Of a DNA stretch of 64,000 bases, positions 45,192-47,308 are shown in pieces. Numbering within the stretch: the stretch's first letter is position 1; the number at the start of each line of letters is the position of its first letter. The stretch is from Microbacterium invictum (GTDB taxonomy: Bacteria; Actinomycetota; Actinomycetes; Actinomycetales; Microbacteriaceae). The stretch spans positions 3,162,001 through 3,226,000 of the forward strand of contig NZ_JACIFH010000001.1 in assembly GCF_014197265.1 (NCBI RefSeq). The letters run 5' to 3'. Under the pieces are notes generated by a model, which was not told the origin of the DNA, did not search any database, and saw only the letters and a list, made by a program, of their open reading frames with translations. Made by a program: the position numbers and the translations under genes.

Positions 45192-46241
45192 ATGCACGGC
45201 GAGTACAAGGTTCCGGGCGGCAAACTGGTCGTCGTCGATCTTGAGACCCGTGACGGGAAGATCGCGGACTTCCACCTCGCCGGGGACTTCTTCCTCGAGC
45301 CGGACGATGCCCTCGCCGATATCGACGATGCCGTCAACGGCCTGCCCGTCGAGGCCGACGTCGCCACGATCGCCGCGGCGGTCCGCGCCGCACTGCCCGA
45401 GGGTGCCCAGCTGCTCGGATTCACGCCCGAGTCGGTGGGCACTGCCATCCGCCGTGCGCTCGTCACCGCCCCGGGATGGTCTGACTTCGAGTGGGAGATC
45501 GTGCACGAGAAGGCCGTCTCGCCGCGGATGAACCTCGCGCTCGACGAAGTGCTGACCGGTCGCGTCGGCGATGGGCGCCGCAACCCGACGCTGCGCATCT
45601 GGGAGTGGGACGAGTCCGCCGTCGTCATCGGGTCGTTCCAGTCGTACCGCAACGAGGTCGACCCCGAGGGGGCGCAGCGCCACGGGTTCGACGTCGTCCG
45701 GCGCATCTCCGGCGGCGGGGCCATGCTCATGGCCGCGGGCGCCATCGTGACCTATTCGCTGTACGTCCCGGCATCCCTCGTCGCGGGTCTCACCTTCGCC
45801 GACTCGTACGCATTCCTCGACGACTGGGTGCTGCAGGCGCTGCGCTCGCTCGGCATCGAGGCCACCTACCAGCCGCTCAACGACATCACCTCGCCGCAGG
45901 GGAAGATCGGCGGAGCCGCGCAGAAGCGCCTCGCCAACGGCGGGGTGCTGCACCACGCGACGTTGTCGTACGACATGGACGGCGCGGTGATGACCGACGT
46001 GCTGCGCATCGGCCGCGAGAAGCTGAGCGACAAGGGCACGGTGTCGGCGGCGAAGCGCGTCGACCCGCTCCGCAGTCAGACCGGCCTGCCGCGCGCGGCG
46101 ATCATCGAGCGGTTCATCGACACCTTCGCGAGGCTCTACGGAGCCGTCCCCGGCACCATCGCCGACGACGAGTACACGGAAGCCGAAGCCCTCGTCGAGT
46201 CGAAGTTCGCCACCGACGCGTGGCTGCACCGCGTCCCGTGA
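45192..46241 (+). CDS. Lipoate-protein ligase A family protein with N-terminal accessory domain
   Basis: A 349-residue ligase that activates lipoate (or octanoate) with ATP and attaches it to lipoyl domains. The first 85 residues (MHGEYKVPGGKLVVVDLETRDGKIADFHLAGDFFLEPDDAL) match the small LplB/C-terminal accessory domain of E. coli LplA, here at the N-terminus. The catalytic BPL/LplA domain follows, with RRISGGGAMLMAAGAI (the RRxxGGG site) and the lipoate-contacting lysine in SPQGKIGGAAQKR (Lys238). It is translationally coupled to the methyltransferase gene by GTGA overlap. The permuted order is known in actinobacteria and archaea. Confidence 0.85.
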   Translation: MHGEYKVPGGKLVVVDLETRDGKIADFHLAGDFFLEPDDALADIDDAVNGLPVEADVATIAAAVRAALPEGAQLLGFTPESVGTAIRRALVTAPGWSDFEWEIVHEKAVSPRMNLALDEVLTGRVGDGRRNPTLRIWEWDESAVVIGSFQSYRNEVDPEGAQRHGFDVVRRISGGGAMLMAAGAIVTYSLYVPASLVAGLTFADSYAFLDDWVLQALRSLGIEATYQPLNDITSPQGKIGGAAQKRLANGGVLHHATLSYDMDGAVMTDVLRIGREKLSDKGTVSAAKRVDPLRSQTGLPRAAIIERFIDTFARLYGAVPGTIADDEYTEAEALVESKFATDAWLHRVP

Positions 46242-47308
46242 GCGACACCGCGCACTCCATCGCCGGCACCCCGCGGGCGGAGCCGACCGCCCGCGCGGCG
46301 TCGGAGACCCCGCCCCTCGCGGCGACCGGGCACGTCGAGATCCACCACGGTGACAACCTGGCCGTGGCCGCGACCCTGGAGTCGGGTTCGTTCACCTTGA
46401 TCTACCTCGACCCGCCGTTCAACACCGGCCGCACCCAGTCACGATCGGTCGAACGCGCCGTCGCCGAGCGCACAGCAGCCCGGGATACCCCGGCTGCAAC
46501 CCCCGCCGCCGGTCCCGCCCGGTCCGGCGTCCCAACTCCTTCGATCTCGCACGTCGAAGCCTCGATTCGGCCCGAATCGGCCGATCTGGCACCGGATCGA
46601 AGGAGTTACGTCGCGGCCTCTCCGGAAGGCCCCGTCAAGCGCGGCTTCCGCGGCACCAGCTACGCCCGCCTCCGCGGCGACCTGCGGGTCTACGACGACC
46701 GGTTCGACGACTACTGGGACTTCCTCGAGCCGCGGCTGGCCGAAGCATGGCGGCTGCTCGCACCCGACGGCACCCTCTACCTGCACCTCGACTATCGCGA
46801 GGCCCACTACGCCAAGGTGCTGCTCGACGCCCTGTTCGGCCGCGACTGCTTCCTCAACGAGCTGATCTGGGCATACGACTACGGCGCGAAGTCCCGCAGC
46901 CGCTGGCCCACCAAGCACGACACGATCCTGGTCTACGTCAAGGATCCGAAGGGCTACTGGTTCGACTCCGAGGCGGTCGACCGCGAACCGTACATGGCGC
47001 CGGGCCTAGTCACGCCCGAGAAAGCCGCCCGCGGCAAGCTGCCCACCGATGTCTGGTGGCACACGATCGTGCCGACCGGCGGCCGCGAGAAGACGGGCTA
47101 CCCGACGCAGAAGCCCGAGGGCATCCTGCGGCGCATCGTCCAGGCATCCACCCGCCCCGGCGACCGGGTCCTCGACCTGTTCGCCGGCAGCGGCACGACC
47201 GGCGCGGTCGCGTCGGCCCTGGGCCGCGATGCCGTACTGGTCGACGACAACCCCGAGGCCATCGCCGTCATGCGCCGGCGCATACCGCACGCGAACGTCG
47301 CGGACTGA
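46238..47308 (+). CDS. Site-specific DNA-methyltransferase (N4/N6 type) with an inserted segment
   Basis: An S-adenosylmethionine-dependent DNA methyltransferase, 356 residues, starting with GTG overlapping the ligase stop. Motif IV comes first (LIYLDPPFNTG, near residue 57) and motif I last (DLFAGSGTTGAVASALGRD, near 313), the order of the beta class. Between motif IV and RGFRGTSYARLRGDLRVY lies an Ala/Pro/Arg-rich segment of about 65 residues not expected in the core. It contains residues 99-124, encoded by the palindrome at 46534-46607. No restriction gene is adjacent, so it is orphan. The recognition sequence is unknown; the insertion might affect activity, although the frame is open. Confidence 0.85.
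   Translation: MSDTAHSIAGTPRAEPTARAASETPPLAATGHVEIHHGDNLAVAATLESGSFTLIYLDPPFNTGRTQSRSVERAVAERTAARDTPAATPAAGPARSGVPTPSISHVEASIRPESADLAPDRRSYVAASPEGPVKRGFRGTSYARLRGDLRVYDDRFDDYWDFLEPRLAEAWRLLAPDGTLYLHLDYREAHYAKVLLDALFGRDCFLNELIWAYDYGAKSRSRWPTKHDTILVYVKDPKGYWFDSEAVDREPYMAPGLVTPEKAARGKLPTDVWWHTIVPTGGREKTGYPTQKPEGILRRIVQASTRPGDRVLDLFAGSGTTGAVASALGRDAVLVDDNPEAIAVMRRRIPHANVAD
46534..46607. repeat. 74-bp palindromic element inside the methyltransferase gene, family 3
   Basis: The outer arms AACTCCTTCGATC (46534-46546) and GATCGAAGGAGTT (46595-46607) are a perfect 13-bp inverted repeat. The centre CGATTCGG-C-CCGAATCG (46563-46579) is a second perfect stem sharing the same axis. It lies in frame, with no stop codon, in the extra segment between motif IV and the rest of the protein. 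Confidence 0.8.

Follow-up and report, generated by a model that had tools for sequence, protein, structure and literature searches.

The stretch of Microbacterium invictum DNA analysed here (the window: 64,000 nucleotides, C1:3162001-3226000 of the genome, here G000) carries a DNA methyltransferase gene with a short palindromic element inside its coding region. The features of this locus, in window coordinates, are as follows.

46238..47308, forward strand: DNA methyltransferase gene (N6_N4_Mtase, PF01555; GTG start), host of the element
46433..46642, forward strand: methyltransferase linker of variable length (residues 66-135); in other species it holds in-frame elements from several families
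46534..46607, forward strand: palindromic element of 74 bp with paired arms; the own genome has 12 copies
46534..46546, forward strand: left arm, AACTCCTTCGATC; at least one exact copy of the arm in 9 of the 12 own copies
46547..46594, forward strand: 48-bp interior, fixed in length and almost free in sequence between copies
46563..46579, forward strand: 8+1+8 palindrome, not kept in the other copies
46595..46607, forward strand: right arm, GATCGAAGGAGTT, the perfect inverse of the left arm
46608..46613, forward strand: outer arm extension ACGTCG, common to other own copies and missing on the left side here

The original prediction described 74 bp with perfect 13-bp inverted ends that encode residues 99-124 without an internal stop, and all of this was verified at 46534-46607. 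It further placed a central 8+1+8 palindrome on the same axis; the palindrome is present, but its centre (46571) lies half a base off the axis of the element (46570.5). In the window, 6 axes have perfect arms of 12 bp or longer (span 40-130 bp), compared to 0-6 in 12 third-order Markov resamplings, and the palindrome at 46534-46607 is by itself within chance for 64 kb. The significance of the element is due to its recurrence in the genome. A genome search with the whole 74 bp, proposed together with the prediction, returned three full-length places (the element plus two others, 75 and 76% identical to it), the 13-bp arm was found at 12 exact places and at 12 with one mismatch (reversed control: 0), some of the latter lacking a partner arm, and the loose pattern AACTCC..GGAGTT had 13 forward matches versus 1 in the reversed control. 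One match, at 2280898, was discarded as a copy because the arms are absent, which leaves 12 copies with ends in common (seven of 74 bp, one of 73 bp and four of 86 bp). The sequence is thus not unique but a dispersed small palindromic repeat. None of the known RNA families matched at gathering score at the four loci scanned, and integron attC-like sites were ruled out by eye from their core motifs.

Outside the window, at C1:1690963-1691862, two copies of the element frame a gene encoding a Vsr/MTES_1575-like nuclease with a putative AbiEi-like winged-helix part, an arrangement that recurs in the genus and the family with many arms. The fold of the protein is of Vsr type, and its acidic and His residues are conserved (the Pfam score is below the cut-off), no NCBIfam family was found for it, and a defence-system scan returned weak partial PADLOC matches only (AbiEi, PDC-S37, Hhe). 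Its neighbours in the own genome and in G152 are an epimerase and an adenosine deaminase, with no AbiEii toxin gene adjoining; an adenosine deaminase adjoins 52 of 113 nuclease loci. Homologues of the nuclease (E 1e-30) were identified in 111 of 149 sampled Microbacterium genomes. By eye, palindromes lie on both sides of the nuclease in about 26 of the 30 best loci, with arms varying by lineage, and most of 19 further loci behave alike.

Eighty more nuclease loci were added from named genomes, nearly all of them Microbacterium (the best 80 of 339). Removal of identical proteins only reduced 129 loci to 113, of which 111 have full flanks and among which near-duplicate species remain. With a shared-arm score of at most 3 mismatches over four 10-mers, a common arm was present on both sides of the nuclease at 81 of the 111 loci, compared to 0/222 resampled flanks, 0/81 windows about 1 kb further out, and 39/333 mismatched locus pairs. 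The strict test for an exact 9-mer gave 52/111 versus 0/1110 (resampled), 0/81 (distant) and 351/12210 (mismatched pairs). At the own locus (L065) the upstream copy has a variant arm, which is why neither test is passed there. Within a locus, the spans of the flanking pair differ by no more than 2 bp at 77 of the 81 loci (between loci, spans range from 62 to 105 bp), and the interiors of the pair mostly show no relation (median z 0.78; z >3 in 13/81). Furthermore, arm similarity tracks nuclease identity (Mantel r 0.52, 0/999 permutations): at least 9 bp of arm are shared in 94% of the 16 pairs at 70-80% protein identity versus 2.6% of the 1063 pairs at 45-50%. In other genera of the family, a score of 3 or less was obtained at 15 of the 29 best-scoring loci, with no control alongside (one of the 15 is still Microbacterium, and L291, L296 and L303 look doubtful).

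In several genomes another nuclease gene lies some 17-21 kb away from the first (L066/L096 in G152, L072/L098 in G017, L079/L101 in G103, L078/L102 in G018, L103/L104 in G007, L105/L106 in G102, L107/L108 in G059, L070/L097 in G084), and where both genes have palindromes, the arms differ; in G084, none were seen at the second gene. The second nuclease of the own genome (L095, G000:C1:371000-376500, 51% identity) had no matched flanking palindromes that we could see. At L075, L077, L083, L090 and L103, two or three successive elements occupy one side of the nuclease, resembling clusters of bacterial interspersed mosaic elements (BIMEs). The nuclease open reading frame often stops within the downstream element (L052:4964-5863 and others), the left arm coding for the last residues (NSFD, NSS, NST).

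The 149 genomes were searched for pairs of exact arms at various gaps, and reversed patterns returned none for any arm. The TTCGA family comprised 25 elements in 6 genomes, all of 73, 74 or 86 bp (66-92 bp were allowed), the CCACGGA family 31 elements in 10 genomes (at most 10 per genome; 73/74 or 85/86 bp), the ACAACGTCGGC family 12 elements in 4 genomes (77-79 bp), and the GTATTCAGTCT family 12 elements in 5 genomes (76 or 87-90 bp). The 138 distinct AACTCC palindromes with 9-bp exact arms in the loci collected had spans of 63-64 (12), 73-75 (104), 83-86 (17), 94-95 (2) and 128-130 bp (3) with none in between, and three control cores gave none. Four classes near 63, 74, 85 and 95 bp hold 135 of the 138; some loci had been fetched with span-limiting patterns, and among the protein-fetched loci 110 of 112 palindromes belong to these classes. 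Similar steps were found for the ATTCAG type (61-62, 71-72, 83-85 bp) and the AACTCA type (63-64, 74, 84-86, 94-95, one at 124 bp); the spans of the GCAGG and CTCCGG types are more scattered. A single period fits the spans best at 11.0 bp (10.6-11.3 is nearly as good), and the class means step by about 10.5 bp. As the helical repeat of B-DNA is also about 10.5 bp, the two arms most probably share one face of the DNA duplex, and steps of about one turn suggest a protein that bridges two arms on the duplex. Common ancestry of the families could add to the clustering of spans, yet the steps recur with unrelated arms.

The interiors were compared within the 73/74-bp class only (20 TTCGA and 24 CCACGGA elements; pairs on the 74-bp ones, 12 and 24). 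Pairwise identity was 0.374 versus 0.319 shuffled (TTCGA) and 0.376 versus 0.353 shuffled (CCACGGA). Mirror pairing in the two families (z 1.7 and 1.9) and the mean single-stranded fold score (z -0.37) lent little support to a conserved hairpin interior. A GTAG (or CTAC) tag was found on 0 of the 276 sides of the 138 palindromes, and CGTC within 8 bp on 20 of the 276.

The methyltransferase linker is one place where such elements lie in frame. An Ala/Pro/Arg-rich segment of about 65 residues had been taken for an insertion peculiar to this protein, a claim that did not hold in the comparison with orthologues proposed at the time: among those of the 120 best of 8000 scored proteins that could be parsed by the patterns, the DPPF-to-RGDL stretch is 42-117 residues long (93 in the own protein, and 39 fewer in the closest listed orthologue). 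The linker varies in length among orthologues, and only the peptide of the element is restricted to the own protein (1/120 of the best). In other species the linker holds a TTCGA element (G008), a CCACGGA element (G160), a CCAC..GTGG-type element (G010), or the arm and 100-bp span of one of the genome's own nucleases (G167, L162). Linker arms match a nuclease-flank arm of the same genome exactly in 6 of 25 linkers versus 43 of 1100 cross-genome comparisons, and with one mismatch allowed in 8/25 versus 161/1100. A loose palindrome test was positive for 23 of 41 parsed linkers (70 loci given), with a codon-shuffle background as high as 213/820, so the argument rests on the arm matches inside genomes. 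Other methyltransferase linkers hold palindromes for which no partner was found, and 7 of the 41 are shorter than 25 residues, which is too short for a 74-bp element. Further in-frame elements were found in the genus in a LuxR-type response regulator, two DEAD-box helicases, an ABC ATPase and a CofC-like protein. In a DEAD-box helicase at L358 (G160:C1:276700-282700) the element lies in frame within an Arg/Asp-rich N-terminal region. A pairing of methyltransferase and nuclease was considered and found unsupported, the former being present in 140 of the 149 genomes (E 1e-60) and the latter in 111 (E 1e-30).

Dispersed copies, framing of nuclease genes, co-variation of arms and nuclease, quantised spans, free interiors and in-frame occupancy of linkers occur together in this system, and we consider it likely that the element is the cognate recognition site of the winged-helix/Vsr-fold nuclease encoded elsewhere in the genome. 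Such a site would consist of two inverted arms of about 11-16 bp on the same face of the duplex, with the spacer between them covering an integral number of helical turns. The winged helices of two or more protein copies would bind the arms and bend or loop the spacer, and the Vsr-type domain may then nick or cut in or near the site. Repair of the break might copy sites elsewhere, mostly into intergenic regions and sometimes in frame into tolerant protein linkers like that of the methyltransferase. The nuclease gene itself would mostly stay put and be inherited vertically while its arm specificity drifts, which would leave each lineage with an arm family of its own and relics of older families. 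Binding, looping, cutting, and copying or mobility are what we infer from these patterns. Four genomes (G008, G017, G160, G084) that have TTCGA copies and nucleases framed by other arms speak against a one-to-one link of family and nuclease.

Sixty-eight dispersed elements, without the nuclease-flanking and methyltransferase copies, were surveyed for position against genes from a simple codon-usage caller that makes errors (e.g., in L064 a false gene is placed over prpB): 43 lie between genes, 20 within a gene, and 5 across a gene end. Thirty pairs of element loci from different genomes have a flanking gene in common, a figure without chance control and in which three pairs depend only on ABC genes less than 50% identical. 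In both G000 (TTCGA) and G010 (CCACGGA), for example, the element between prpD and prpB lies 15 nt past the stop codon, and 25 nt separate it from the ATG that follows. Such shared positions with different arms are what dispersed operators would show, the protein being a regulator with a secondary nuclease domain and the elements a selected regulon whose arms change with the protein; AbiEi-type proteins do autoregulate via inverted repeats, according to PMC7319586. Same-arm copies at one locus also retain 11-13 of 13 arm bases at an interior identity of 0.54-0.80. Their interiors are related in G071/G123 (z 10.4), G142/G014 (z 6.7) and G152/G084 (z 5.2), with 12-13/13 arm bases kept, and unrelated in G071/G152 (z 1.0) and G090/G128 (z 0.5, 11-12/13 arm bases); where arms differ at the same locus, the interiors are unrelated. 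Shared loci and kept arm bases mean that some sites outlive speciation and that their arms are held.

Against operators stand the 10 of 43 intergenic elements that lie between convergent genes, the 20 of 68 that this caller places within coding sequence, and the seven methyltransferase linkers with no room for an element. At a histidine kinase/response regulator locus (L321, L327, L058, L056:17344), moreover, elements occupy three positions in four species: within the regulator gene in two species (G090 and G128, where the element is in frame and separates the receiver from the HTH domain), beyond the end of that gene in G000, and ahead of the kinase in G008. We regard dispersed operators as unlikely, although they are the strongest competitor of a nuclease recognition site. 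Much less probable are miniature inverted-repeat transposable elements (MITEs) of an ordinary transposon that escaped detection, with the nuclease gene as a frequent bystander or passenger. MITEs, too, are short and dispersed with terminal inverted repeats and a free interior, but matched palindromes with lineage-specific arms at 81 of 111 loci of one gene family are unexpected for a bystander, and MITEs are not known to have quantised spans. That the element is an ordinary chance palindrome or an ordinary part of the methyltransferase has next to no probability: a single perfect 13-bp inverted repeat in 64 kb and a linker of varying length would fit, but not 12 own copies, nor the exact arms that recur at fixed spans in 6 of 149 genomes, where the reversed pattern had no match.

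A nuclease with recognition sites of this kind resembles the REPtron, in which the enzyme gene is mostly single-copy, shows no sign of mobility and has palindromes beside it and across the genome, enzyme and palindromes co-evolve, and the palindromes have conserved ends and a length-constrained spacer (71 bp for GI) (PMC3116915; PMC8266576). As in REPINs (doublets of repetitive extragenic palindromes, REPs) and REPtrons, the enzyme gene here is framed by its own palindromes, with more dispersed in the genome. Here the enzyme is Vsr-fold and not HUH/Y1, the GTAG tag is absent, the interiors appear to keep little or no hairpin, the helical-turn steps point to duplex rather than single-stranded DNA, and copies number about a dozen and not hundreds. 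The sole transposase family searched, HUH/Y1 (PF01797, E 0.001), had no gene in the own genome (positive control: 5 of 14 named genomes). Membership among the REP-associated tyrosine transposases (RAYTs) and REPINs was ruled out by the lack of PF01797 in the own genome and of GTAG, and we do not class the system as a REPtron, from which it differs in enzyme class and tag and probably also in hairpin and strand state. The case for a new class of repeat system in bacteria, a separately evolved double-strand counterpart of RAYT/REPIN, i.e., winged-helix/Vsr nucleases with private phased two-arm sites that spread by duplex cutting and repair, insert codons in frame and change their code by lineage, appears evenly balanced to us.

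Other known repeats are more distant. CGTC-tagged REPs and TIRtrons are likewise palindromic repeats, some inside genes; the hairpins described in PMC3733652 are small (stems of 8-9 bp, loops of 4-5 bp), CGTC repeats are stated there to have no dedicated transposase, and the main text names neither Microbacterium nor Actinobacteria. The low CGTC count given above sets the present elements apart. AbiEi proteins are reported to bend DNA and to bind inverted repeats in pairs (PMC7319586); unlike these antitoxins of type IV toxin-antitoxin systems, the present protein has a fused nuclease domain, no neighbouring AbiEii, and dispersed sites. Rickettsia palindromic elements, to which the original prediction likened the repeat, are about 150 bp long, encode a conserved peptide and lie in frame in protein genes, with no cognate nuclease mentioned in the accessible text of PMC10969869. 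The likeness holds for in-frame insertion and ends there, as the present elements are 74/86 bp long and, with a free interior, encode no conserved peptide. What stands of the prediction as a whole is a small dispersed palindromic repeat that can lie in frame; identity with the Rickettsia element and an insertion specific to this protein do not, and the surface loop proposed as its contribution to proteins is conjectural.

To our knowledge, HUH-type RAYTs are the only enzymes tied in this way to dispersed bacterial palindromes. A literature search that mostly did not reach subscription papers turned up no published description joining this family of nucleases to palindromic repeats, nor a link in print of the Vsr, I-Bth0305I or MTES_1575 REase (PF18741) domain to such repeats. 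An unrelated nuclease family with the same partnership would offer dozens of natural enzyme-site pairs with differing arms, on which palindrome spread and the co-evolution of a protein-DNA code become testable on duplex DNA. It would also give a lead on the function of a large family (DUF559/MTES_1575 in Pfam) and one route by which proteins may gain peptides in frame.

Upstream of the methyltransferase, the window carries a lipoyl protein ligase-like gene (PF21948, 45192-46241), the 3' end of which overlaps the methyltransferase start.
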